Shown here in pieces: positions 8 to 31,547 of a stretch of 33,396 nucleotides of DNA. The stretch comes from a virus: IMG/VR virus record IMGVR_UViG_3300034167_000441, positions 1-33,396 of that record; one strand, 5' to 3'. Positions within the stretch are counted from its first letter, which is position 1. The number at the start of each line of letters is the position of its first letter. Under the pieces are notes generated by a model. The model saw only the letters and a list, made by a program, of their open reading frames with translations, was not told the DNA's origin and did not search any database. The translations under genes were made by a program, and so were the position numbers.

Positions 8-1183
8 GTGAGCATCAAGGATCTCGGAAACGGTAAGTACTACGTCAGGGTCTACAACCCTCACGGCGGGCCGGAGTTCCGCAAGACGGTGAAGGGCGAT
101 CGCGCGGCGCGCAAGGCCGAGGCCGACGCGATCATGAAGTTCGAGCGCGGATCGGTCACCGACCCCGGAGCGGGCAAGGTGCTCTTCCGCGACTACGCGC
201 TGCGCGTCATCGACTCCCGAGACCTCGCTCCCTCCACCCGCCTGCACTACCTGCGCGACTGCAAGCGGCTGCTCTTCCCCGTGTGGGGCGACCGGGCGAT
301 GCGCAGCCTCCTGCACACCGACGCCGAGGCGCTCACCACCGCCGTCCGCAAGTCCGCGGCCGGGGCGGGCGCGTCGAACGCGCTCATCCTCGCCCGGAGC
401 ATCATGCGGTCCGCCATGCTCGACGGCATCATCGAGCGCAACCCGTTCGCCGGGCTGAGGCTCGGGCAGCGCAAGCCCGCCCCGAAGGCACCGCCCGAGT
501 GGGCGGACATCCGGTCGGCCGTCGAGCAGGCGACCCGCAGCGACTACCAGGACGCGACGAACCTCATCATCTCCGTCCTGGCGGGGACCGGGGTGCGGGC
601 CGGCGAGATCGGCGGCATCGACGCGGTCGCCGACGTCGACTACCTGCGCGGCAGCCTGACCGTCCGACGCCAGCTCCGGTGGATGTCGGAGAAGGAGGCG
701 CTCGAGGCGGGCCTCGGCTCGGGCGGGTACTTCTTCTCGCCGCCGAAGACGGAGGCAGGCGAGGACCGGGTGGTGCCGCTCGCCGGGTGGGTGGTCGATG
801 CGATCGCACGGCTGGCGGGGATGCGGGGGGAGCCGGTCGCGCTGCCGTGGAAGTCGCCGGTCGGTGCGCTGACGGCCCCGGTGGACACGCTGCTGCCGCT
901 GTACCAGCCGAGCGCGCTGTCGACGAGGGTGGCCGATGCCTCGCGCCGGGTCGGCGCCCGGTTCTCCCCGCACGACCTGCGTCACCGTTACGCCACCGAG
1001 CTGGAGCAGCGGGGGGTGCCGCTGCGAACCGTCCAGTGCGTCATCGGCCACGCGCCGGTGGGCGTGACGATGTCCGTGTACGTCCACGTCACCCCGGAGT
1101 CGCTGGTCCTCGCGCGCCAGGTGGTGGCAGATGCGTGGGCGGATGCCGCTTCGCCGACGGCCGGGCAGGCCCTGGCCCGGTAG
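8..1183 (+). CDS. int: Tyrosine-family site-specific integrase
   Basis: The enzyme catalyses recombination between phage attP and host attB. The 391-residue product has the usual phage integrase plan: an N-terminal arm-binding segment (about residues 1-55), a SAM-like core-binding domain (60-150) and a C-terminal catalytic domain. Visible active-site residues are Arg197 (GTGVRAGE), Lys247, His322 and Arg325 (HDLRHRY), His348 (IGHAP) and the nucleophile Tyr358 (MSVYVH). The start is the GTG at base 8. If the window is joined end to start, this GTG overlaps the TGA of the HTH regulator on the right edge in a GTGA junction, with a G-rich ribosome site just before it, so the two genes are probably translationally coupled. 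A hairpin and candidate attP arm sites follow immediately. The family is certain; the integration site is not visible. Confidence 0.95.
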   Translation: MSIKDLGNGKYYVRVYNPHGGPEFRKTVKGDRAARKAEADAIMKFERGSVTDPGAGKVLFRDYALRVIDSRDLAPSTRLHYLRDCKRLLFPVWGDRAMRSLLHTDAEALTTAVRKSAAGAGASNALILARSIMRSAMLDGIIERNPFAGLRLGQRKPAPKAPPEWADIRSAVEQATRSDYQDATNLIISVLAGTGVRAGEIGGIDAVADVDYLRGSLTVRRQLRWMSEKEALEAGLGSGGYFFSPPKTEAGEDRVVPLAGWVVDAIARLAGMRGEPVALPWKSPVGALTAPVDTLLPLYQPSALSTRVADASRRVGARFSPHDLRHRYATELEQRGVPLRTVQCVIGHAPVGVTMSVYVHVTPESLVLARQVVADAWADAASPTAGQALAR

Positions 1184-6278: not shown

Positions 6279-8473
6279 GCGGCACGCCACGACGCGGAGT
6301 TGGATGCCTCGAAGCGCTTGATGTACTCGACGACTTGCTGGCCGATCTGGCGCGGATCCCCGACGCCGGCCTGCACGTTGATGGCGTAGGTGTTGCCACC
6401 GCCGCCACCGGCCCGGCTCGCCGACCCCGCGAGGACGTCGTTCGGGACGATGGTGCCGGACGCGCCGGGCACGAACAGCTCGGGACCGTTCTCCCCGACG
6501 ATGTACGGAGTCCCGCCGGTGACAGGGCCGCCGAGTGCCCTGCCCTCAGTGCCCGACGGCTTGCCGCTCGTGTCGTACTCGACCTTCACGGTGATCGTCG
6601 TGGCGAGGTTGCTTCGCACCCATTTGCGGAACGCGGCCGCCTCATCGCCGATTGTCTTCTTCGCGCTGGCGATCATGCTGACTGCCGACGAGTCGCCGAC
6701 CTTCGCCCAGGCATTCGCCATCGGGATCCCGAGGGTGGTCTCGGTCAGGGTCGCGAGCGCTGCGTAGTCGGCATTGAGCTGCGTGATCATCTCCGGATGC
6801 GCGGCGAGGAAGTTCGCGAGCTGCGTCTGGAACGTCGTCGGGAGCGCGAGCAGCTTGTTCGCGAATGCCTCGGGCAGCTGGGTGATGATGCCGCCCATCG
6901 CGCCGACAGCGGCCGACTGGTTGGCGATGTCGCCGAAGACTGTCTGCATGATCTGCTCAGGCGTCATCGGCTTGCCGTCCGCGCCCGTGGTCGTGAAGTC
7001 CAGGCGGCCCATGATGGTGTCGCTCACGGTCTGGGAGTACGCGGCGAGTGCGTCCTGCCCTTGCTTGACGATGCCGACCTGCTTGTCGACGATCCCCTGG
7101 AACGCATCAAGCCGGGACTGGTAGCCGTCGGCGAGCGCACCGCCGAGCTCGACGCCCTTGCCCTTCATCGTGACGACTGCGCCGTCGAGAGACATCGTGA
7201 TCGCGGCTGCGGCCTCGCCCCACTTGACCTTCGTCAGCTCGGCGGCCGCAGACATCGACCCGCCGGCGGTGTTGGCTGCCGTGGTGACCTCGTCGAAGTA
7301 GGTGGACACGTTGCCGCCGGTGAAGGAGATGCTCTCGCCGTAGGAGCGCGCTGCGGCCGTGTAGCGGTCGGCGGATGCGTTGATCGCCTTCTCCCGCTTG
7401 CCCGCGGCCATCGCGATCTCGGCCGCTTCAGCGGCGGCCGCTAGGCCGTAGTAGCGGGACGACAGGACGTCGACCTTCGCCGCCTGCGCCTCGGCAACGT
7501 CGTTCGCTGCCTTGCCTGCCTCGACCACGCCCTCGACGCCCTGGACCACGAGTCCGAGGCCGGGCGTGAGCCGGGCGCTCGCGAGTGTCAGGTCCCACAG
7601 GCTGACGCCCGCGTCATCGGTTGCCCCGACCGCGTTGTTCGCCGCCGCGATGAAGTCGTTGATCCCCTTAATGCCGAGCCCGAGCCCGGTGATGAAGTCG
7701 GAGAGGACATCCGCGGCGCCGTCGATCGCCTGCGTCACGCCACCAGCGCCACCGAAGGCGCCGCTCGCATCGTCGAGCGCATTGAGGAGCGCGTAGCCGA
7801 TCTTCTCCTTCGCCTCGTTGGCGGCGACGGATACGCGGTTCAGCTTGCCCTGGTAGGTCTCGGCGGCAGCGGATGCCTGCCCCGCGTAGCGCTCGGACAG
7901 GGCCGCGGTGATCTTGTCCATGTCCTTGCTCGCGATGATGTTCGCGTCGATGCCGGACTTGAGCCGGGTGATGGCCGAAAAATTATTGGCGTATCCAGCC
8001 GCTAGGGCCGCAGAAACCTCGGCGACGCTCTTGGAGGATCCGGCGCTGACGTCGAGTGCCAATTTGAGCGCTGACTGCGCGGTCGTGACGTCCTTGGTGA
8101 CCGTCACGATCTGCTGGAGGGCCGGACGAAGGACGTCGTCGGCCGTGCCGGACGCCCGAGCGAGGCCGTCGATGAACTGCTCGACGCCCGTGGTGCGGAA
8201 GCCCTGCCCCACGTTGTCGAGGCTGACCGCGAGGGACTTCATGGCTGCCTCGTCAGCGAGCGCGCCAGAGACGGCGGAGCCGAAGAAGTCGGTTATCGCG
8301 GCGACGCTGAAGGTCGCTGCCATGACGCCGCCGAGGGCGGCCATCGACTTGCCGAGGCCGCCCATCGCACCGCTGGTGACGCCGGCCTGCCTGCTCATCC
8401 GGTCGAGCTCGGACTGCGCCTTGGCGATATCCCGGCCGTCGTACTTGCCGACGATGGAGACGACAATTGCCAT
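6275..8473 (-). CDS. Tape measure protein
   Basis: The 732-residue protein is the longest of the tail block and sits in the standard tape-measure position after the chaperone genes. It is Ala-rich and largely helical. There is a small Gly/Ala hydrophobic segment near residues 38-60 and a central hydrophobic stretch, and the C-terminal part carries GRALGGPVTGGTPYIVGENG. That GGxVxxGxPYxVGExGPE motif is common at the ends of siphovirus tape measures. It sets tail length and is ejected with the DNA. By the usual rule of about 0.15 nm per residue, a tail of roughly 110 nm would be expected. The start lies two bases after the previous stop. Confidence 0.93.
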   Translation of the reverse strand: MAIVVSIVGKYDGRDIAKAQSELDRMSRQAGVTSGAMGGLGKSMAALGGVMAATFSVAAITDFFGSAVSGALADEAAMKSLAVSLDNVGQGFRTTGVEQFIDGLARASGTADDVLRPALQQIVTVTKDVTTAQSALKLALDVSAGSSKSVAEVSAALAAGYANNFSAITRLKSGIDANIIASKDMDKITAALSERYAGQASAAAETYQGKLNRVSVAANEAKEKIGYALLNALDDASGAFGGAGGVTQAIDGAADVLSDFITGLGLGIKGINDFIAAANNAVGATDDAGVSLWDLTLASARLTPGLGLVVQGVEGVVEAGKAANDVAEAQAAKVDVLSSRYYGLAAAAEAAEIAMAAGKREKAINASADRYTAAARSYGESISFTGGNVSTYFDEVTTAANTAGGSMSAAAELTKVKWGEAAAAITMSLDGAVVTMKGKGVELGGALADGYQSRLDAFQGIVDKQVGIVKQGQDALAAYSQTVSDTIMGRLDFTTTGADGKPMTPEQIMQTVFGDIANQSAAVGAMGGIITQLPEAFANKLLALPTTFQTQLANFLAAHPEMITQLNADYAALATLTETTLGIPMANAWAKVGDSSAVSMIASAKKTIGDEAAAFRKWVRSNLATTITVKVEYDTSGKPSGTEGRALGGPVTGGTPYIVGENGPELFVPGASGTIVPNDVLAGSASRAGGGGGNTYAINVQAGVGDPRQIGQQVVEYIKRFEASNSASWRAA

Positions 8474-9472: not shown

Positions 9473-9880
9473 CTACGCGGTGGCGCGGGTGACCGTGCCG
9501 GATGCCGGCCACGTGACGTCGAACGTCGCGAGGTCGCCGACGCTGGCCGCGATCGGGCTGTAGGAGTTCACGAGGAACGTGCCGGTGTAGGTCGGGTTTG
9601 TCGCCGACACGGTGCCGCTCGTCGGCTTAATGACGACCGTCGCAAGGCTGGACATGAGCGGGTAGAGGACGCTGTCAATCGCCCCAGCGCCGAAGTCGGA
9701 ATGGAACGACAGCGTGATGCTCGCCTGCTTGAGGCCGCCGATGCGCGTGCGCCAGTCTGAGCCGAACGCGGTCGTCTCGACGTCATCGGACTCGATCGAG
9801 AGCTCGACCTGCGCGAGGCTTGAGGAGTAGTCCACGCCATTGATGGTCGTGGTCACTGTGGTGGCAACGAACTTAGCCAT
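9473..9880 (-). CDS. Major tail protein (tail tube)
   Basis: The 135-residue protein (MAKFVATTVTTTINGVDYSS) is rich in beta strands and Thr/Ser. It contains GSDWRTRIGGLKQASITLSF (about residues 40-59) and the closing SYSPIAASVGDLATFDVTW. This pattern is typical of short tail-tube proteins of actinophage siphoviruses. Its position just before the tail assembly chaperone pair supports the call. It should polymerise in hexameric rings around the tape measure. There is no added Ig-like domain. An AAAGGG ribosome site precedes the ATG. Confidence 0.9.
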   Translation of the reverse strand: MAKFVATTVTTTINGVDYSSSLAQVELSIESDDVETTAFGSDWRTRIGGLKQASITLSFHSDFGAGAIDSVLYPLMSSLATVVIKPTSGTVSATNPTYTGTFLVNSYSPIAASVGDLATFDVTWPASGTVTRATA

Positions 9881-9901: not shown

Positions 9902-10306
9902 TTAGGCGTAGACCTGAACGACAAACTCCGCAGTCAGGTAGACGGTCCCGCCGATCTCGGCCGGGCCGTAATTGCGCATCGAGGTGACGCGCAAGTCTTG
10001 GATGGTCCCGCCGAGGGTCCGGTCGGACTCGATGGCGGTCTTGACGCTCGTGGAGCCGGTCGGCTCGCAGTAGGCATCGAGGGTGTTCTGCGCGGTGCGG
10101 GCATCGGCCCTGCATGCGATGACCAGGACGGTCAGCTCGTACTCGTCGAGGCCGCGCCTGAACGCCCGGTCGAACGTGACGGTGCCGGGGACGACGACGG
10201 CGATCGGCGGGGACACCGACTCGGGGACGGTCGCGGTCGTGCGCAGCCCGGTGATCGTCGCGAGGTTCGCCGCGATGCCGGAGCGGATGCCGCCCATCGT
10301 CGTCAT
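9902..10306 (-). CDS. Tail terminator protein
   Basis: The 134-residue product starts MTTMGGIRSGIAANLATITG and includes PPIAVVVPGTVTFDRAF and IESDRTLGGTIQDLRVTS, which I recognise from the tail terminator/completion proteins of actinophages placed just before the major tail protein. It caps the tail tube and forms the joining surface to the head. The ATG overlaps the preceding connector stop (ATGA), which fixes the start. Length and position match the family; no catalytic residues are expected. Confidence 0.82.
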   Translation of the reverse strand: MTTMGGIRSGIAANLATITGLRTTATVPESVSPPIAVVVPGTVTFDRAFRRGLDEYELTVLVIACRADARTAQNTLDAYCEPTGSTSVKTAIESDRTLGGTIQDLRVTSMRNYGPAEIGGTVYLTAEFVVQVYA

Positions 10307-10899
10307 GCGGTGCCCGTCATCTTCTTGTACGGATCGAGGAGCACGGCGACGTCGGGATCGACGGCGCGGGTGACGCGGAAGACGCCGATGTCGGATGAGC
10401 CTGCGACCCCGAGCGGGCTGCTGGTCCTGGCGAAGATCCTCGACGCCTGGATGACGGCGGCCTGCGTGACGGAGACGGGGACGGCGGGCCAGCCGAACGT
10501 GCCGGTGATCCGCACCGTCGCCTCGCCGAGTGCCGCCGGCCACCATGCGGACTTGATCGCCCGCAGCCTGGTCGCGGGCCACGGGAGGCCGTCGGCGCGG
10601 CCGTTGAGCGGTTCCAATTGGTAGTCGACGCCGCTCGTCCAGGTGAGGTCGAAGACGTTGTCGGCATTGCTCGAGGACTCGACGAGGGTGGGGACGGCTG
10701 CGAGGTCGTCGACCTGCACGACGAGGGCCTCGATCGGTGCGAAGATGCGCGTCGCGGTGACGGTCCCGAAGGTGCGGCCGCAGTAGCCGTCAATCAGCTC
10801 GGAGGCGGCGGAGCCAGCCATGGAGACGAGCGAGTCGTCCACGCTGTCGGTGATGCGGAGCGCCGCCTTGATCTGCGCGGTCGATGCGTACAGCGGCAT
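10303..10899 (-). CDS. Head-tail connector (gp6-like adaptor)
   Basis: The 198-residue protein has an N-terminal helical segment starting MPLYASTAQIKAALRITDSV. A typical adaptor motif follows (VSMAGSAASELIDGYCGRTF, about residues 26-45), then a beta-rich middle. The aromatic end contains TFGWPAVPVSVTQAAVIQAS, the signature of phage gp6-like head-tail connectors that sit under the portal. The start at 10899 has a GGAG ribosome site, better than the upstream Met. It overlaps the small gene before it by 110 bases and the tail terminator by four. Confidence 0.85.
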   Translation of the reverse strand: MPLYASTAQIKAALRITDSVDDSLVSMAGSAASELIDGYCGRTFGTVTATRIFAPIEALVVQVDDLAAVPTLVESSSNADNVFDLTWTSGVDYQLEPLNGRADGLPWPATRLRAIKSAWWPAALGEATVRITGTFGWPAVPVSVTQAAVIQASRIFARTSSPLGVAGSSDIGVFRVTRAVDPDVAVLLDPYKKMTGTA

Positions 10900-11020
10900 T
10901 CGGGCTCCAATCAGTGAGCAGTTCGCGCATGGCCTGCCGGATCGCGGCATCGTCGGCGTGCTGGCGGGTGAGGCGGTCGATGGTCATGTCGAGTGCCTGG
11001 ACGAGTGCGCGATCATCCAT
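10790..11020 (-). CDS. 76-residue protein between glycan cassette and connector, unknown
   Basis: The first 40 codons (MDDRALVQALDMTIDRLTRQ onward) have the high third-position GC of neighbouring genes, and the ATG overlaps the end of the DUF115-like gene by eight bases. The remaining 36 codons overlap the start of the connector in another frame and are Arg-rich, so the C-terminus may be little constrained. The N-terminal half is predicted as two charged helices. I do not recognise it. It could be a small scaffold-like or head protein. Without it the gap between neighbours would be 113 bases. Confidence 0.5.
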   Translation of the reverse strand: MDDRALVQALDMTIDRLTRQHADDAAIRQAMRELLTDWSPNAAVRIDRADQGGAPHHRQRGRLARLHGWLRRLRAD

Positions 11021-11672
11021 TGATGGTCAGGCCCTCGGTCTCGTAGCGGTGGCCCTCAAGCCGTGGCGTGACCCATGGATTCAGCGAGTGGACGCCGACG
11101 CCGAGGCTGCGGATCCTCGCGGCCATCGCCTCGAGGCTGCGGGTCCACAGTCCGTAGTGGAGATGCCCGTCGGGGTCTGGGTAGTCGGCGATCCGCGAGG
11201 CGTTGTCGAAGGCTCCGCAGTCCGCGCCCACGAGGACGATGTCCGCCGCGCCCATGTAGGCCGCGAGGTGCATCGCCATGTGCAGGGACGTCGGGCCGAC
11301 GACGAGCCGATCATCGTCGGTGGGCCAATGAGCTTCTGGGTCAAAGCCCGAGTAGTGCTGGTCGCTGGTCGGGACGAAGACGACGTTCGGCTCGCTGGCG
11401 CGGGCAGGGCTCTGATCCTCCGGGGGCAGCTGCTCGACCGTCGGCGTGAATACCAGCAGGTCGGGCCGCAGCACCGCGATGCGGTCGGCGTCCGAGTGAT
11501 GATGCGCGACCGAGTAGAACCACTCGAGGCCGGCGGTGGTGCCTGCGAAGTTCGTCGCCACGACCGTCTGGCGTGCGAGGAGCCGCGGGGAGATGCTCTG
11601 CAATGACGCACCGGAGCCGAGCACCCACACGGTCTCGCCCGCGTGGATGTCCGCGAAGTCGGTCAGTCCCAC
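11013..11672 (-). CDS. Rossmann-type DUF115/MptE-like protein, possible sugar transferase
   Basis: The 219-residue product starts at a GTG with an AGGAGG ribosome site eight bases upstream, inside the end of the GT2 gene. It opens with FADIHAGETVWVLGSGASLQ, the G.G.SL nucleotide-binding loop of the DUF115/6-hydroxymethylpterin pyrophosphokinase-like group. It later has ADIVLVGADCGAF, a strand-loop typical of the same fold and of GT42-type sialyltransferase-like enzymes. Such proteins occur in flagellin and surface glycan modification loci. Being third in a translation-coupled run with two glycosyltransferases, it probably takes part in the same glycan synthesis. The substrate is unknown. Confidence 0.65.
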   Translation of the reverse strand: MGLTDFADIHAGETVWVLGSGASLQSISPRLLARQTVVATNFAGTTAGLEWFYSVAHHHSDADRIAVLRPDLLVFTPTVEQLPPEDQSPARASEPNVVFVPTSDQHYSGFDPEAHWPTDDDRLVVGPTSLHMAMHLAAYMGAADIVLVGADCGAFDNASRIADYPDPDGHLHYGLWTRSLEAMAARIRSLGVGVHSLNPWVTPRLEGHRYETEGLTING

Positions 11673-12313
11673 GAGTTGGCCCTCCTGCGTGCGAGTGACC
11701 AGGTGCCCTCGGTCAAGTCTCCAGCGCCTACCTTGCGCTGGTAGTACTCGGCGTTGCTTGCGTAGGTGCGGTTGTTCTGCTCCCCGTAGCCGCTCGCGAG
11801 GGTCGACGAGTTGTCGTGATGGATGAGGCCGGCCGGGAGCCGGACGATCGGCACGGTCGGCGTGCAGCGCCGCTCCATGTCGACGTCCTCGAAGTAGCCG
11901 GGATGCAAGCCCTCGTCGAACAGGCCGACATCGCGGACGACGTCCTCGCCGATCGCGAACGCGCACCAGGGCTGCGGGCCGCCGTTCAGTACGAGCGTGT
12001 CCGGCGCGGCCATCGTCGCGAACTGGCCGAGCGCGCCCGGCGCGAATGTCACGTCGTGATTGACGATCAGCCACCAGGGCGCGAACGGGGTCGCCTTGAT
12101 GCCGAGGTTCCATGACCCAGCGACGCCGAGGTTGGCCGGCATCTTGATGACCGACGTGCGCTGCACGTGCTCGACGGGCCAGCCCGTCGACGTGTTGAGG
12201 GCATTGCCGTTGTCGATGATGACAAGCCGGGCGATCGGGCGGTCGATGGAGTCGAGCATCCGATAGAGGAGCTGCGGGCCGGTGAGGATCGGCACGATGA
12301 GGACGGGGATCAT
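11663..12313 (-). CDS. GT2-family glycosyltransferase (GT-A fold)
   Basis: The 216-residue enzyme starts MIPVLIVPILTGPQLLYRML. It has the family-2 landmarks: the donor-binding strand VIIDNGNALN (about residues 31-41), the NLGVAGSWNLGIKAT segment, an NHDV motif in place of the usual D.D metal site, and DEGLHPGYFEDVDMERR, which carries the ED acceptor-side acids. It should transfer a sugar from a nucleotide donor. It lies between the GT4-like gene (ATGA overlap) and the DUF115-like gene (10-base overlap), all inside the structural operon, so virion proteins are the likely acceptors. No membrane segment is visible. Confidence 0.85.
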   Translation of the reverse strand: MIPVLIVPILTGPQLLYRMLDSIDRPIARLVIIDNGNALNTSTGWPVEHVQRTSVIKMPANLGVAGSWNLGIKATPFAPWWLIVNHDVTFAPGALGQFATMAAPDTLVLNGGPQPWCAFAIGEDVVRDVGLFDEGLHPGYFEDVDMERRCTPTVPIVRLPAGLIHHDNSSTLASGYGEQNNRTYASNAEYYQRKVGAGDLTEGTWSLARRRANSWD

Positions 12314-13566
12314 GCGAGCGCCTTGAGCGCGGGCCGCCAGTAGGCGTCGAATACAGCGTCGGCGTCGTAGCCTGCCGCGAAGTCGATCGCCTTCTGGGAG
12401 CGCTTACGTGGCCGCTCGTAGGCATTGACGAGCGCGCCGACGATGGAGTCCAGCCGCGGGGTCATGAGCCATGATTTCTGCGCGTGGTCCCAGAACGGCT
12501 GGCCCTCGACGAGCCACCCGTCGCCGAGCAGCTCGGGCTGCGCGGTCGCATTCGACACGATCGCCGGAGTGCCGCACGCCTGCGCCTCGACCAGTGGGAT
12601 GCCGAAGCCCTCGCCCATGCTCGGCTGGAGGAGCACGTCCATGCCGCTGTAGCAGGCGGCGAGGACGTTGGCGGGGATGCCCATGCGCCAGACGAACGGG
12701 TCGGGGAACACGATCTGCTTCTTGCTGATCCCGCACGATGCGGCGAGCGCGACGAGGTCGATGCCGCCCATCGCGCCATGCGCCTCGGTGTGGCAGTACA
12801 GGACCGCGTCGGGGTGCTGCCTGGCGAACATCCCGAAGGCGAGGAATGCCTCGGGGAATGCCTTGCGGTTCGGCACCTGGCCCTTGTTCGCGCTGACCAT
12901 GCCGACGACGAATGCGTCCTCGGGCACGCCCATGAACTCGCGACCCGTCATCTCGCCGTCCGTCGCGTCGAACGACTGGGTCGGCTTGAAGACCTTGGTG
13001 TCGATCGCGTGCGGGACGTAGAGCACGTCCTCGACCCCGGCGTCGATGAGCATCTGCTCGCCGAAGCGCGACATCGCGATCGGCCGAACGTTCGGGCGCT
13101 TGCACCACGCGACGACGTCCGGCGGGGCCGGGAAGTGATCGACCGGAACCCACGACGCGATCTGCGGCGCGGTGTCCCAGTTGAGCCCCTTGAAGATCCA
13201 CGTGTCGTAGAGCGTCACGAGCAGCGGGTCGAGCGTCGGGTTCTGGTGCGCCCACCATTGGAGGTAGGCGGGGATGACGTCATTGGAGTGCAGGTCGAAG
13301 CCGCGCGGGAGATGCGGCATTCCCTCCCACGAGGACGTGGTGCCCTCTAGTCCGTAGTTGGAGGCAATGGCGACCGCGTGGCCGTCGGCCTTGAGCCGCC
13401 TGACCGCTTGCGCTGTCTGCTGGCCGTAGCCGCTTTCGGCGGTCGGGCTGTTCGAGGCCCAGAGGATGGCCCGTGATGAAGATGGAACCCGTGCCGCAGC
13501 AGGAGCTGGCCGAATGGCCCGCTCACGCCGAGCGGGACTCCCTGAACGTCTATTTGCATTGCCCAT
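12310..13566 (-). CDS. GT4-family glycosyltransferase (GT-B fold), uncertain start
   Basis: From about residue 33 the protein reads RAILWASNSPTAESGYGQQT. It continues through FGEQMLIDAGVEDVLYVPHA to SMGEGFGIPLVEAQACGTPA, the retaining GT4 donor-site motif with its E-x7-E pattern. It should use a nucleotide-sugar donor. The N-terminal 32 codons in this frame have only about 38 percent GC at the third position and an odd Arg/Ser/Pro composition. A second ATG at 13559, with a GGAG site nine bases upstream, opens a frame with about 73 percent GC3 over the same stretch. The true N-terminus is therefore probably read in that frame with a -1 change near 13470, or a sequence error is present. The gene overlaps the GT2 gene by ATGA. 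Confidence 0.8.
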   Translation of the reverse strand: MGNANRRSGSPARRERAIRPAPAAARVPSSSRAILWASNSPTAESGYGQQTAQAVRRLKADGHAVAIASNYGLEGTTSSWEGMPHLPRGFDLHSNDVIPAYLQWWAHQNPTLDPLLVTLYDTWIFKGLNWDTAPQIASWVPVDHFPAPPDVVAWCKRPNVRPIAMSRFGEQMLIDAGVEDVLYVPHAIDTKVFKPTQSFDATDGEMTGREFMGVPEDAFVVGMVSANKGQVPNRKAFPEAFLAFGMFARQHPDAVLYCHTEAHGAMGGIDLVALAASCGISKKQIVFPDPFVWRMGIPANVLAACYSGMDVLLQPSMGEGFGIPLVEAQACGTPAIVSNATAQPELLGDGWLVEGQPFWDHAQKSWLMTPRLDSIVGALVNAYERPRKRSQKAIDFAAGYDADAVFDAYWRPALKALA

Positions 13567-13597
13567 GTCTCCGGTCTTCCTGTGCGCAGGGTGGAGC

Positions 13598-13637
13598 CTG
13601 GGGGCGCGGCGACCCTGCGCGAGCGCCGCGCCCCCAG
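13598..13637 (-). terminator. Strong hairpin between capsid and glycosyltransferase genes
   Basis: A perfect 14-bp GC stem (13598-13611 with 13624-13637) closes a 12-base loop just after the capsid stop. No T tract follows. It could be a partial terminator or an RNA-stabilising end that keeps capsid mRNA in excess over the downstream glycan genes. Confidence 0.6.
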
Positions 13638-13657
13638 ACAGTGATGTCCAGCGACGG

Positions 13658-14851
13658 CTAGGAACCGCCGCCGATGAAGGTCTTGATGTGCGCCGACTGC
13701 GGCAGGCCGCCATCGACGCGGAAGATGGCCCGGAAGGTGACGAGGCCATCGGCGAAGGCGTAGTCGTCCGAGCGGTCGAGGCGGATGCCGCCGACCTGAC
13801 GGACGAGGTACGACTTCAGGTCGCCAGCGATGAGGGACTTCGCCGAGGTCGCGACCGCAGCCATCGAGGGATTCTCGAAGACTGCATAGCCGAGCAGCCG
13901 GTCGGGCTGGCCCGCCTGGAGCGACGGCTGCCAGACGTAGGAGCCGTTGCCGTCCTGGAGCTTGCGGGCTGCGGCCATCGCCGTCGCGCCGCCCATGATG
14001 CCGAAGCCGGGGAGGCGACGGACTGCGTTGTCGGTGGAGTACACGAGGTCGATCACGTTGTTCGTCGTGAACGCTCCCGAGACGCCGGTGCCGCCGGTGA
14101 TGCCGGAGCCTGCCGAGGGGACCACGCCGTTCGGCTGGGTCGTCCCCGTCCCGGTCGTGAGACCGGCATTGACCGCGAGGCCGAGTGCCTGGCCCACATT
14201 CGTGCCCATGTACCCGAGCAGGTCGACCCCTGCATCCTCGATCATCTCGAGCGACACCTGCACGAGGAAGGAGTACTTGTAGGCACTGAGGGTCAGGAAC
14301 GCCTGGAACGACGGGTCGGACTCGCCGATGGCGCCGCCCTCGGAGGTAACGCTCCCTGAGCTGTAGGCATTGGTTCTTGGAATCTGGAGGGACTCTCCGC
14401 CTGCCGTGTTGAGGACCGTGGAGGTCTCGAGCATCGGGCCGGTGTAGCGGGCGACCTCGATGATGGTGTCGTAGAAGCTGGTCGCGACGGGTGCCCCGGT
14501 CGTTCCCGCCTTCGTAAGATCGCGGCGCTCGAAGTTGAGCGAGCGGGTCTCGCCGCGTGCGAGCGAGCGGATGAGGTCGGCATCGCTGCGGGCCTCGGGT
14601 GCGCGCTCCTCGGGGCGTGCCTCGACGTGGCCGGCGACCGCGCTGCGGATGTCCGCGTCGCGCTTCTCGTCGGCGAGCATCTGGCTGATGACCAGGCCGC
14701 GCGCGTCGATGTCGGCGTTGATGGCCGAGTACTGGACGTTCTCCTCGGCGCTGAGGTCGCGCTTCTCGTTCGCAGCGTTGTCGAGCAGGGCCTTGGCGGA
14801 CTCGAATGCGCGGGCGCGCTCCTCGACCTGCCGCTTGATGTAGTCGCTCAC
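13658..14851 (-). CDS. HK97-type major capsid protein
   Basis: The 397-residue protein starts at a GTG with an AAAGGA ribosome site (VSDYIKRQVEERARAFES). The first about 100 residues are charged and coiled-coil-like, as in the delta scaffold domain removed by the prohead protease. The mature part starts near ETRSLNFERRDLTKAGTTGA. It carries the HK97-fold landmarks IIEVARYTGPML, SLQIPRTNAYSSG, YSFLVQVSLEMIEDAG and a C-terminal FADGLVTFRAIFRVDGGL. It forms the icosahedral shell. The preceding gene is the protease and the following genes are glycosyltransferases, so it is a candidate acceptor for glycosylation. Confidence 0.93.
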   Translation of the reverse strand: MSDYIKRQVEERARAFESAKALLDNAANEKRDLSAEENVQYSAINADIDARGLVISQMLADEKRDADIRSAVAGHVEARPEERAPEARSDADLIRSLARGETRSLNFERRDLTKAGTTGAPVATSFYDTIIEVARYTGPMLETSTVLNTAGGESLQIPRTNAYSSGSVTSEGGAIGESDPSFQAFLTLSAYKYSFLVQVSLEMIEDAGVDLLGYMGTNVGQALGLAVNAGLTTGTGTTQPNGVVPSAGSGITGGTGVSGAFTTNNVIDLVYSTDNAVRRLPGFGIMGGATAMAAARKLQDGNGSYVWQPSLQAGQPDRLLGYAVFENPSMAAVATSAKSLIAGDLKSYLVRQVGGIRLDRSDDYAFADGLVTFRAIFRVDGGLPQSAHIKTFIGGGS

Positions 14852-21748: not shown

Positions 21749-22515
21749 GTCGCGGCCGCCATCGCCTGGATCTCCTTCAGGTCGTAACGCCCGTGGTCGC
21801 GGCGCACTCGGCCCGCGGCGGCCCAGCGGCGCAGCGTGCGGACGTCGACGCCGGCGCGCTGGGCAGCGGCCTCGCCGTCCATCCAGATCGCTCCCGTGAC
21901 CTCGCCCGCCACGATGACGAGCAGCCGGTCCACGCTCCACGTCGTCCCGCACGATCGGCACGTCACCTCGTCGTCCAAGTCCTGGCCGTTGATGACGAGC
22001 ATCCGGCCGCAGTCGCCGCCGTCCTCGGGCGCGGGACAGGCCACCCGGTAGCCGTGCGATGGGGCGGCGTTCGCGGCCCGCTGGGCTTGGAGGTAGCACT
22101 GGCGCACCTCGCCCGCGAGGTCGTCGACCGGGAGGAAGTCGACCGCAAGGCGCGGCAGCCAGGAGCGCAGGAAGCCGATGACGTCGACCAGGAGTGCGAG
22201 CGCGGGGTCGGCCTGCCCGCGGCTGGCGTCCAGCGATGCCGGACCCCACGGGCTGAGGCCGTAGGTCTCGCGGATGTCGCGACACCACAGCTCGAGCACA
22301 TCGAGGACGGTGTTGCCGGCCACGAAGTCCAGGGCGTCGAGCCTGACCCCGAGGCCGCGCTCGCCTGCCCGGCCGCTGCCGCCCCTGCCCGGCTCGAGCT
22401 CGTCCTCGGCGAGGTGGCGGAAGGCGAGGATGCCGGAGAGCTGCAGGTCGATGCGGCGCCGGCACGGGTCGCACGCGAGGTTCGTGCTGTCGCGAGAGCA
22501 GATGACGCACGTCAT
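21745..22515 (-). CDS. Zinc-ribbon and MerR-type HTH protein
   Basis: The 256-residue protein has an N-terminal zinc ribbon (CVICSRDSTNLACDPC, residues 3-18). A long helical middle (30-170) is followed by a second Cys pair region (VACPAPEDGGDC and VTCRSCGTTWS). The C-terminal winged helix DGEAAAQRAGVDVRTLRRWA is of the MerR/excisionase type. I recognise this layout from actinophage early genes annotated only as DNA-binding. It probably regulates phage or host transcription. It overlaps the WhiB gene stop by ATGA. Confidence 0.72.
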   Translation of the reverse strand: MTCVICSRDSTNLACDPCRRRIDLQLSGILAFRHLAEDELEPGRGGSGRAGERGLGVRLDALDFVAGNTVLDVLELWCRDIRETYGLSPWGPASLDASRGQADPALALLVDVIGFLRSWLPRLAVDFLPVDDLAGEVRQCYLQAQRAANAAPSHGYRVACPAPEDGGDCGRMLVINGQDLDDEVTCRSCGTTWSVDRLLVIVAGEVTGAIWMDGEAAAQRAGVDVRTLRRWAAAGRVRRDHGRYDLKEIQAMAAAT

Positions 22516-22775
22516 GGGTTCCTCCGTTGGTGGCGGCGCATGGATCGGATCTCGTCGGACGTGAGCCCGGCCCAGATGCCGAAGCCGAGGTTCGGCTCGG
22601 CGAGGGCGTGGGCGAGGCACTCGGGCTTGACAGGGCAGGCCTGGCAGATGGCGATCGCGACGCCCTCCTCGCCCCGGTACGGCTGAAGATTCGGGAACCA
22701 CAGGTCGGGGTCGACGCCCGGCGCGGCGCAGGCGGCGTCGGTCATCCACGGGTGCTTGGTGGGCGGTTGGAACAT
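22512..22775 (-). CDS. WhiB-family iron-sulfur regulator
   Basis: The 87-residue protein has the four WhiB cysteines, Cys16 (DAACA), Cys44, Cys47 and Cys53 (CQACPVKPEC), which hold a [4Fe-4S] cluster. The family's G-[IV]-W-x-G turn (GFGIWAGLTSDE, 64-75) and a basic C-terminal DNA-binding tail (RSMRRHQRRNP) follow. WhiB proteins bind the major sigma factor in actinobacteria. A phage copy can redirect host transcription; superinfection exclusion is known for a mycobacteriophage WhiB. TGATG and ATGA overlaps on its two sides put it in the early operon. Confidence 0.93.
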   Translation of the reverse strand: MFQPPTKHPWMTDAACAAPGVDPDLWFPNLQPYRGEEGVAIAICQACPVKPECLAHALAEPNLGFGIWAGLTSDEIRSMRRHQRRNP

Positions 22776-23173
22776 CAGAACGGCATCCCCTCGGTCGTTG
22801 CGGCGGCTGGTCGGGGCGTGATGGCCTGCCATTCGGCAGGGGTGGGCTCGCCGCAGCGGTGCGCGGCGTATGCGGGGCGCTGGCCCGCCCCGGCCGGGTA
22901 GGCGCGGATCCAGTGGCGGTCGCGGGGCACGAGCTGGCGGCCGGCGAACAGCGACAGCGTCGGGCGCCCGGCGAGGAGTGCCGCAAGCTCGCCGGCCGCG
23001 TGCAGCTGGCCGAGGTCAGCCCAGGCGTCGAGCCCGGTGCAGGCGATGCCCGCCAGGCATTGCGCGCGGCACGTCCGGCAGGTGCGGATCCCTGCGTTGC
23101 GGGTGAGCCCGGACTCGGACAGGACGCCCTTGTCGACGAGCATGGATCGCAGCCACAGCTCCTGCTCGTTCAC
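22775..23173 (-). CDS. 132-residue Cys-rich phage protein, unknown
   Basis: The protein starts at a GTG (MNEQELWLRSMLVDKGVLSE) and has a zinc-ribbon-like CRTCRAQCLAGIAC (about residues 32-45). A helical LDAWADLGQLHAAGELAALL region and an aromatic/basic end follow. It is a familiar but uncharacterised type in actinophage replication regions. It is the first gene after the iteron-like repeat cluster, so its promoter may lie within or beside those repeats. It overlaps whiB by TGATG. Confidence 0.65.
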   Translation of the reverse strand: MNEQELWLRSMLVDKGVLSESGLTRNAGIRTCRTCRAQCLAGIACTGLDAWADLGQLHAAGELAALLAGRPTLSLFAGRQLVPRDRHWIRAYPAGAGQRPAYAAHRCGEPTPAEWQAITPRPAAATTEGMPF

Positions 23174-29093: not shown

Positions 29094-29878
29094 GACGCCG
29101 CCCGATCTGCACGGGAGAGGATCTGGGCGACAAGGGACTGGCTGACTCCGAGCCGCCAGGCGATCTGCTGGGCGCTGACGTAGCCCTGATCGCGGGCCTC
29201 CTCGATGTCCTCGAGGGTCACGCCGGTTACATTGCGCGGCAACGACTTTCGACGCACGTCCTCGGGCTGGTAGTCGGGGTCGTCGATCGACTCGTCATCC
29301 CACGCGAGCGGCGGGAGCCAGCCCTTGGCCTTCGCGATGCTCGCGGCCCGAACGCTCGGCCCCGCCTGATCCCACAGGTCCTCGTAGAGGCCGCGGATGG
29401 CGTCCTTCGTGCGGAGCCGGATCGTCGGCGTCTTGCCGCTCGCGATGTCCTGAATCGTTGCTGGATGCTTGTGGCCGAGCTGCTTTGCAAGGTTCCGGCT
29501 GGGCCATCCGTTGACGGCAAGCGCCCGGATCCTGCGGGCGGATCCGGTGGCGTCGACGTATGCGTCCCGACGGTTGTCGGAGTCGATGCGGACGGCGAGG
29601 ACACGCGCCATCGTCTTATGCATGACCCGTTTCCTCGTCATCACGTCGGCCAGTGCGTTCCTACTCGACCAGCCGGAGGCGAGGGCGATCGCCTTGAATG
29701 ACATGCCGGCGGCCATGAGTTCGGCGACGTGGTCGCGGAGCGGTTGCGCGTCGACGGTGTGCTCGACTCCGCGGAGCCGGTTCAGCCTCCACATCTTCGA
29801 CCGCTTTGAGGTAGCGACCCGGCAGGTCTCGCATCGGCATCCGTGACGTGCGTACGCGGTCGCGCTCCCGTGCCTCAT
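29090..29878 (-). CDS. Multi-HTH DNA-binding protein
   Basis: The 262-residue protein begins MRHGSATAYARHGCRCETCR, the Gly/His/Cys zinc-like start common in actinophage HTH proteins. At least three helix-turn-helix-like segments follow: AAGMSFKAIALASGWSSRNA (about 53-72), NGWPSRNLAKQLGHKHPATI (about 123-142) and YVSAQQIAWRLGVSQSLVAQ near the end. It probably regulates transcription or binds replication DNA. The start is the ATG overlapping the methyltransferase stop (ATGA). The target is unknown. Confidence 0.7.
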   Translation of the reverse strand: MRHGSATAYARHGCRCETCRVATSKRSKMWRLNRLRGVEHTVDAQPLRDHVAELMAAGMSFKAIALASGWSSRNALADVMTRKRVMHKTMARVLAVRIDSDNRRDAYVDATGSARRIRALAVNGWPSRNLAKQLGHKHPATIQDIASGKTPTIRLRTKDAIRGLYEDLWDQAGPSVRAASIAKAKGWLPPLAWDDESIDDPDYQPEDVRRKSLPRNVTGVTLEDIEEARDQGYVSAQQIAWRLGVSQSLVAQILSRADRAAS

Positions 29879-31404
29879 GCCGTCACCAGGCTCTCCGCGA
29901 CAGCCGTGATGAGGTCGCGCGCGGACGGCGGGGTGACGGCGTTGCCGCACATGCGTACCTGCTCGCGGCGGTTGCCGAGGATTCGGTATTCGGCGGGGAA
30001 CGCCATCGCGCCCTTGACCTCGGACGGCTCAAGCATCCTGAACATGACGTCGTCGACCTGGGCCGCTGCGGCGTCGATGTCGCCGGGGGTCAGGACCGAC
30101 TGGTGGCCCGCGGTCGTGATTGTCCGCGCGGCCTCCCATGCAGGGGTGGTCATCTCGGCTCCTCCGGTGTTGTTGCGCATGAGCAGGGCGTGGCGGTCGG
30201 TGGTCGTCACGGTGGGCAGGGCGTCCCCGATCGGCTGCGCCCCGTCGCTGCTTCCGTAGTAGGAAGTGATGAGTGCGCGGCGGCTCGCCGGGAACACGAC
30301 GCCGACGCCGTCGTTCGTCGTCTGGGTCCTCATGACGTCGTTCGATGACCGGGCCGTGTCGTCCCACTTGCCTCCGACCGGGGTGAGCAGCGGCGGCACG
30401 GCGAGGGCCTTCGACTCGATCGTGTGCAGGGTGCGGAGCACGTCGTCCGTCGACCACGCGCGGTAGTACGAGTTCGGGTTGCCGAACTGCGCGTGCTTCG
30501 GGTCGGCTGCGTCGTAGGTATTCCCGGCGGCCTCCAAGTGGATCGGCGACCAGTAGCGGGCGATGCCCGCGGCGATGCGGCGGCGCGTCTTCTCCGCGAG
30601 GGGCTTGGCCCGGTCGCCGATGCGATGGCCCTGCAGCGTCCAGTCGATGATCGAGGACGCGGGGAGCCAGCCGGGCTCGACGACGGCGTTGCGGCAGGAC
30701 GCGTTCGGGCAGCGGTAGACGTACTGCGAGCGGTAGCGTCCGACGCCCCCGGAGTCCTGGCGCTTCCACGACTGCACGGAGCCCACGACCTCGGAGCAGG
30801 CCGGGCACCACGCCTTGGGGCGCTGCATGGACGCGACGTCCGGGCGGCGGTTCCCCTTGCGGTGGAACACCACGTAGAGGCGATCTCGCGACTGCGCGGC
30901 GGGAGCACCCTGCGCTTGGGCGTGCATCGAGTTGAGGCTGACGATCTGGTGGTCGTACCCGAGTGCGTCCATCGCGAGCAGCCATGCGCGGAACGGCAGC
31001 CAGGCGGCGACCTCGATCACGTTCTCGACGATGACCGCCGCGTACTGGTGGTGCTCGGCGAACCGGACGACGTCCCACATCGTGGCGCGTGACCGCTCGG
31101 CCGCCTCGTCGGGCACCCGCTCGTCGAACAGGTCGCCCTGCAGCGTGTCCTGCTTGCGGCCCTTGGCGCGCGAGTGATTGGTGCAGGACGGGCTCGCCCA
31201 CAGGATGTCGGAGGTCGGGAAGTAGCGGGGGTCGATCTGGGAGATGTCGGCGCAGATGTGGTCGGCATCGGGGTGGTTGCTGTTGTGCGTCTCTACCGCG
31301 AGGTCCCAGTGATTGGAGGCGACACGGACCTCGATGCCTGGGACTTGGATAGCCCCGGTCGACGATCCGCCGGCCCCGCAGAACAGGTCCGTGATGTTCA
31401 GCAC
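29875..31404 (-). CDS. DNA cytosine-C5 methyltransferase
   Basis: The 509-residue enzyme uses S-adenosylmethionine to methylate cytosine. It starts at GTG with a GGGGAGG site. Motif I is DLFCGAGGSS (6-15), motif IV is ASPSCTNHSRAKG (70-82) with the likely nucleophile Cys74 in an S-P-S-C context instead of P-P-C, and motif VI is VIVENVIEVAAW (125-136). Motif VIII is QSRDRLYVVF (171-180), and the C-terminus has the RMCGNAVTPPSARDL motif X. A zinc-ribbon-like insert (CPACSEVVG ... CPNASC) lies in the target-recognition part. No restriction enzyme is nearby, so it probably protects phage DNA from host restriction or marks it for regulation. Confidence 0.92.
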   Translation of the reverse strand: MLNITDLFCGAGGSSTGAIQVPGIEVRVASNHWDLAVETHNSNHPDADHICADISQIDPRYFPTSDILWASPSCTNHSRAKGRKQDTLQGDLFDERVPDEAAERSRATMWDVVRFAEHHQYAAVIVENVIEVAAWLPFRAWLLAMDALGYDHQIVSLNSMHAQAQGAPAAQSRDRLYVVFHRKGNRRPDVASMQRPKAWCPACSEVVGSVQSWKRQDSGGVGRYRSQYVYRCPNASCRNAVVEPGWLPASSIIDWTLQGHRIGDRAKPLAEKTRRRIAAGIARYWSPIHLEAAGNTYDAADPKHAQFGNPNSYYRAWSTDDVLRTLHTIESKALAVPPLLTPVGGKWDDTARSSNDVMRTQTTNDGVGVVFPASRRALITSYYGSSDGAQPIGDALPTVTTTDRHALLMRNNTGGAEMTTPAWEAARTITTAGHQSVLTPGDIDAAAAQVDDVMFRMLEPSEVKGAMAFPAEYRILGNRREQVRMCGNAVTPPSARDLITAVAESLVTA

Positions 31405-31547
31405 GACGCCTCCCCGATGTCCTCGAGGCACTGCTGCGCGGCGTCGAGCCAAAGCACGGTCGCGGGGGCTGCGGCGACCTCATCCGGGGTGCCGCCGTCG
31501 GCCCATGCCAGGACGCGGGCGACGAGGCTGACCTGCTCGGGCGTCAT
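31398..31547 (-). CDS. 49-residue protein coupled to the methyltransferase, unknown
   Basis: The short product MTPEQVSLVARVLAWADGGT continues as two predicted helices and ends LEDIGEASC. Its stop overlaps the methyltransferase start by seven bases and its start overlaps the upstream gene by ATGA. Third-position GC is high. I do not recognise it. Translation coupling suggests a stoichiometric relation to the methyltransferase. Confidence 0.55.
   Translation of the reverse strand: MTPEQVSLVARVLAWADGGTPDEVAAAPATVLWLDAAQQCLEDIGEASC

Follow-up and report, generated by a model that had tools for sequence, protein, structure and literature searches.

A candidate glycan cassette at a fixed address between the capsid and connector genes of aquatic phages

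Introduction

Glycosylation of the phage particle has been demonstrated in few phages. Mycobacteriophages Che8, Corndog, and Myrna use their own glycosyltransferases (GTs) to glycosylate capsid and tail tube (PMC12363180), and the chlorovirus group makes its own capsid glycans (PMC4691112). GTs are also encoded by the acI phages E7 and F5, with either DNA protection or superinfection exclusion proposed as their role (PMC10202952), and Pontimonas phage phiPsal1, whose genome has a counterpart of the locus analyzed here, has been lost as a phage (PMC6106888). Virion glycosylation is already known from mycobacteriophages, and GT genes have been annotated in the structural regions of phiPsal1, Mae-JY09, and S-CBS4. 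In the literature covered, to which the primary papers on mycobacteriophage glycosylation and freshwater actinophages did not belong, we found no prior description of a fixed capsid-connector slot with a constant GT4 and a rotating interior.

Results

A three-gene cassette in the late operon

The stretch of DNA analyzed, hereafter the window, spans the whole of an IMG/VR virus record (33,396 bases, GC content 68%). Its late genes lie on the minus strand in the order small terminase, large terminase, portal, S78 protease, HK97-type capsid, a trio of GT4, GT2, and DUF115-like genes, connector, tail tube, and tape measure (Table 1). A sequence-only reading of the window had described this trio as overlapping genes that interrupt the capsid-to-connector order, and ORF coordinates and family matches agree with it exactly: the three genes have the positions and identities claimed, GT4 and GT2 overlap by ATGA (12310-12313), GT2 and the DUF115-like gene overlap by 10 bases (11663-11672), and all three lie between the 3' end of the major capsid protein (MCP) gene at 13658 and that of the connector gene at 10303. 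A 76-aa candidate ORF (10790-11020, minus strand) begins shortly before the DUF115-like gene ends and enters the connector gene in a different frame.

Table 1. Positions of the features discussed, in window coordinates.
Feature	Coordinates	Strand	Supporting match
Tyrosine integrase	8-1183	+	
Tail tube protein, possible glycan target	9473-9880	-	PHROG 4574 1.9e-33
Head-tail connector, gp6-like	10303-10899	-	PHROG 442 3.6e-18
DUF115/MptE-like putative sugar transferase, 219 aa, GTG start	11013-11672	-	PF01973 5e-6
GT2-family glycosyltransferase, 216 aa	11663-12313	-	PF00535 (Glycos_transf_2) 2e-4; PHROG 29879 1.1e-39
GT4-family glycosyltransferase, 418 aa	12310-13566	-	PF00534 (Glycos_transf_1) 1.1e-11; PHROG 2170 2e-39
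Strong hairpin 3' of capsid stop codon, terminator-like	13594-13638	-	Fold-energy scan
HK97-fold major capsid protein	13658-14851	-	PF05065 (Phage_capsid) 9e-52
WhiB-like regulator gene	22512-22832	-	
C5-cytosine DNA methylase	29875-31452	-	

The WhiB-like gene suggests an actinobacterial host and the tyrosine integrase a temperate lifestyle; with the C5 methylase added, the window phage is a probable temperate actinophage that methylates DNA. Besides WhiB, phiPsal1 and the binned contigs described below also make an actinobacterial host probable. No phage near-identical to the window was found in INPHARED.

The three predicted enzymes differ in how closely they match described families. GT4 scores 45 bits against Glycos_transf_1, above the curated cut-off of 26.4, and both glutamates of its catalytic EX7E motif (E319 and E327) are invariant in 18 aligned sequences. 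GT2 falls just below the cut-off of Glycos_transf_2 (21.8 bits against 23.3) and matches PHROG 29879, a phage galactosyl transferase family; its metal-binding Asp and catalytic-base acidic motif are present, with D87 and D143 invariant and E142 conserved in at least 90%. The third protein scores 26.7 bits against PF01973, below the gathering cut-off of 34.6, and this profile is matched at E <= 0.01 by 37 of the 37 members of its family, 20 of which also match a PHROG sialyltransferase. In a fold search with its AlphaFold model (pLDDT 92.6), good matches were limited to predicted viral MptE-like proteins (TM 0.54-0.60), weak ones included CstII (probability 0.82, TM 0.43) and ST6GalNAc2 (probability 0.84), and no PDB fold matched at E < 0.001; a tblastn search of cultured phages for its gene gave no match. 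Profiles and predicted fold together suggest that this protein belongs near DUF115/MptE-like proteins as a putative sugar transferase. A search for membrane segments found none in any of the three proteins.

The cassette occupies the same slot across relatives

Relative scans recovered at least 317 viral relatives of GT4 and 194 of the DUF115-like gene, showing that the trio is not a chance assembly. Among the best 80 of the 317 GT4 relatives, GT4 lies between capsid and connector genes wherever the flanks extend far enough. Since choosing loci by GT4 might bias this picture, loci were picked again by the capsid protein alone, and GT4 is directly downstream of the capsid gene in all 75 capsid-selected loci with enough sequence. 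In the branch of phiPsal1, GT4 adjoins the capsid gene in 56 of 65 assessable loci and is missing from nine, with 15 more loci too short to assess. The DUF115-like gene is in the same slot in 76 of 76 new loci (family scan, one motif).

The order GT4-GT2-DUF115 followed by the connector, which the sequence-only reading had proposed to look for in other phages, was found in at least 57 distinct loci, a count taken from metagenome contigs, which are fragments, and from loci that are related within a clade and so are not independent events. That reading had also called the DUF115-like member uncommon; these loci instead make it a recurrent third member within this phage group.

A cellular origin of GT4 was considered and rejected: the five strong GTDB matches are all in metagenome-assembled genomes, four of them (L325-L327 and L329) with a capsid gene adjoining GT4, and the remaining cellular GT4s have weak scores. 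Two of these contigs with a related GT4 behind a capsid gene, L329 and L326, are binned as Gemmatimonadaceae and Chloroflexi; the slot may thus extend beyond actinobacterial phages, unless these bins are wrong.

Slot content is swapped or absent in close relatives

Genes found in the slot as alternatives encode GT17, a TagD-like cytidylyltransferase, further GT2-type enzymes, an NAD epimerase/GDP-mannose dehydratase, CmcI-type and other methyltransferases, an NTP transferase, and a radical-SAM protein, in addition to several families without a Pfam or PHROG match. Such exchange is visible between very close phages. L033 and L042 share 99.7% of capsid and 98% of connector sequence and have slots of 3012 and 3961 nt, and L038 matches L042 at 98.5% in the capsid and 99% in the connector, with GT2 at only 73%. 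Within the slot of L042, otherwise near-identical to L033, positions 6589-7530 encode a radical-SAM/SPASM protein. Gene order can also change, as in L327, a phage contig from a Microbacteriaceae assembly, where it is GT4-DUF115-GT2.

Of the nine phiPsal1-branch loci lacking GT4, seven have an empty slot with only 16-81 bases between capsid and connector genes, and the other two (L216 and L225) retain GT2 without GT4. A short minus-strand ORF lies between the capsid gene and GT2 in these two. The slot of L231, one of the loci too short for the count above, is also empty. These empty-slot sisters (L214, L226-L231, and L237) retain their virion genes, which shows that a phage can lack the cassette and still keep these genes, and they are natural controls for cassette function. 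A GT4 elsewhere in three empty-slot contigs was sought and not found, in a search run without a positive control. A glycosylated C-terminal tail was considered as a mark of the target and rejected: the C-termini of capsid and tail tube are short and alike in loci with and without the cassette.

The cassette also occurs next to another type of capsid gene. In L285, the trio adjoins a different HK97-family capsid (PHROG 2263), which is about 25% identical to that of the window over part of its length, and the trio, connector, tail tube, and tape measure remain recognizable at 46-58% identity (connector 55%, tail tube 53%, GT2 58%). Thus, the cassette is not tied to the window-type capsid. No match to the window-type capsid profile was found in L281-L289, among which the PHROG 2263 capsid was verified in L285 only. 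In these nine loci, a recombination break appears to lie just behind the capsid gene.

The hairpin belongs to the capsid transcript

The sequence-only reading had taken the position of the trio behind a strong hairpin as a hint of its function. The hairpin is real: it is the strongest 45-nt hairpin on the entire minus strand of the window (z = -3 against shuffles), and a hairpin of -20.5 kcal/mol or stronger within 45 bases is present in all 171 distinct capsid-GT4 junctions, whose median energy is -30.3, compared to -14.8 for 150-base segments drawn at random from these loci, only 1% of which reach the junction median. However, it is no sign of cassette function, since it also follows the capsid gene in the empty-slot loci and both GT2-only loci, in most of which a T-run comes after it, a trait of intrinsic terminators. 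A role as regulator of the cassette was rejected on the same ground. Kept where the cassette is missing, the hairpin is a feature of the capsid transcript and uninformative on what the cassette does; it probably acts as an attenuator, reducing expression of downstream genes. Across the 171 junctions, its stem sequence varies freely and its loop motif is often kept (GCAGG, with TAGG instead in many phages of the phiPsal1 type). No Rfam family matches it. A conserved loop is unusual for a terminator and may bind something.

Discussion

We favor, with a probability of roughly 0.52, the reading that this locus is a late glycan cassette whose soluble enzymes glycosylate a virion protein, the GT4 step being constant and the rest varying. 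GT4 would lay down the first or core sugar, GT2 would extend it, and the DUF115-like protein would add or cap it with a further group. These steps would take place in the cytoplasm during assembly, and the product would be a glycan on a virion protein of the same operon, most likely the capsid or the tail tube. Against this reading, no nucleotide-sugar pathway gene was seen among the scanned window proteins, so that the host would have to supply the donor sugars. Since interior genes are swapped within the phage group, the surface sugar would differ between otherwise near-identical phages, and varied surface sugars may be under selection.

Decoration of capsid or tail tube is what the sequence-only reading had suggested, and the late operon position, kept in hundreds of relatives, and the soluble nature of the enzymes fit virion glycosylation. 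Neither target stands out: no sequence mark in capsid or tail tube tracks the cassette, and both the unchanged C-termini of the sisters lacking it and the foreign capsid beside the trio in L285 count against a simple capsid target. Also against the favored reading, the distant GT4-GT2 pair of Synechococcus phage S-CBS4 lies between portal and protease. Given the break between capsid and GT4 in L285, the capsid is no likelier as the target than the tail tube or some other late protein.

The main rival, which we regard as rather unlikely, is that the enzymes act late in infection on glycans of the host cell surface and thereby prevent superinfection or the re-adsorption of released progeny. Genes for GT4, GT2, methyltransferases, and cytidylyltransferases typify the decoration of cell-wall polymers, variable surface glycan islands occur in aquatic actinobacteria (PMC7771536), and superinfection exclusion is among the roles proposed for the GTs of E7 and F5 (PMC10202952). 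However, the trio has no linked flippase or membrane GT, its own proteins are free of membrane segments, and the genes are within the late structural operon rather than near the integrase.

It is improbable that the glycan is instead placed on some other late protein, such as a tail fibre, receptor-binding protein, or connector, or that the product is a soluble sugar. The trio of L285 does stay with the connector and tail side, but no particular partner stands out, and in nearly all examined loci the cassette stays next to the capsid gene.

Glycosylation of the phage DNA, which would shield it from host nucleases, is very unlikely, because the scanned window proteins include no hydroxymethylase or other base-hypermodification gene and the C5 methylase alone was seen. 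Viral GTs can hypermodify DNA, as cited in PMC12619734, and DNA protection has been proposed for E7 and F5 (PMC10202952), but the cassette is in a structural operon and has empty-slot sisters. Least credible of all is that the slot serves as a neutral point of insertion (a moron site), a safe gap between capsid terminator and connector start with products that have no virion role: slots can be empty and their content rotates, yet the annotated content is nearly all glycan enzymes and GT4 persists throughout the main-clade loci with invariant catalytic residues.

Candidate virion-glycosylation genes have one fixed, easily located address in hundreds of environmental phages, and the natural relatives with empty or swapped slots make testable what aquatic phages gain from sugars. 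In water, there is no animal immune system to explain such sugars, and the options are adsorption, protection from decay or grazers, and escape from bacterial defences.

Comparison with known systems

Among described phages, phiPsal1 (MG835450) has the same slot, with the order MCP-GT4-methyltransferase-GT2-neck and identities to the window of 46% for GT4 and 43% for GT2, except that an opposite-strand methyltransferase takes the place of the DUF115-like gene. Che8 resembles the window in having three overlapping GT genes (gp108-gp110), and its virion proteins are glycosylated (as cited in PMC12363180). In contrast to the window, the Che8 trio is at the far right genome end, the connector directly follows the MCP, and gp110 is a GT25, unlike the window families. 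Homology to gp108-gp110 was rejected, as the GT4, GT2, and DUF115 profiles have no match in that region of Che8.

Microcystis phage Mae-JY09 has a GT4 between MCP and head-tail adaptor, and Synechococcus phage S-CBS4 has GT4-GT2-methyltransferase in its structural region, but the distant GT4-GT2 pair of S-CBS4 lies between portal and protease, and both are cyanophages whose head and tail proteins differ from those of the window and whose GT4 identity is 25-38%. Among solved structures, the GT4 profile matches the chlorovirus GT B736L (PDB 3oy2) best by sequence (2.4e-12); this GT is likewise virus encoded, although by a eukaryotic virus, and the match is confined to about 140 residues in the core of GT4.

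The DUF115-like protein can be set beside DUF115/MptE-like proteins, through the PF01973 match of all 37 family members, and beside GT29/GT42 sialyltransferases, through its weak fold likeness to CstII and ST6GalNAc2. The Maf flagellin glycosyltransferase has a multi-domain architecture and acts on flagellin; the window protein, in contrast, is a single 219-aa domain encoded in a phage operon. Gtr serotype-conversion cassettes comprise a membrane flippase and a polytopic GT next to attP, unlike this trio, which has no membrane segments and is located in the late operon about 10 kb from the integrase. Tentatively, a widespread aquatic phage group, probably of actinobacteria, may possess a fixed-address surface-sugar locus within its virion operon, in which a constant priming GT4 adjoining the capsid gene and rotating finishing enzymes give near-identical particles different sugars, as a counterpart of bacterial serotype loci.
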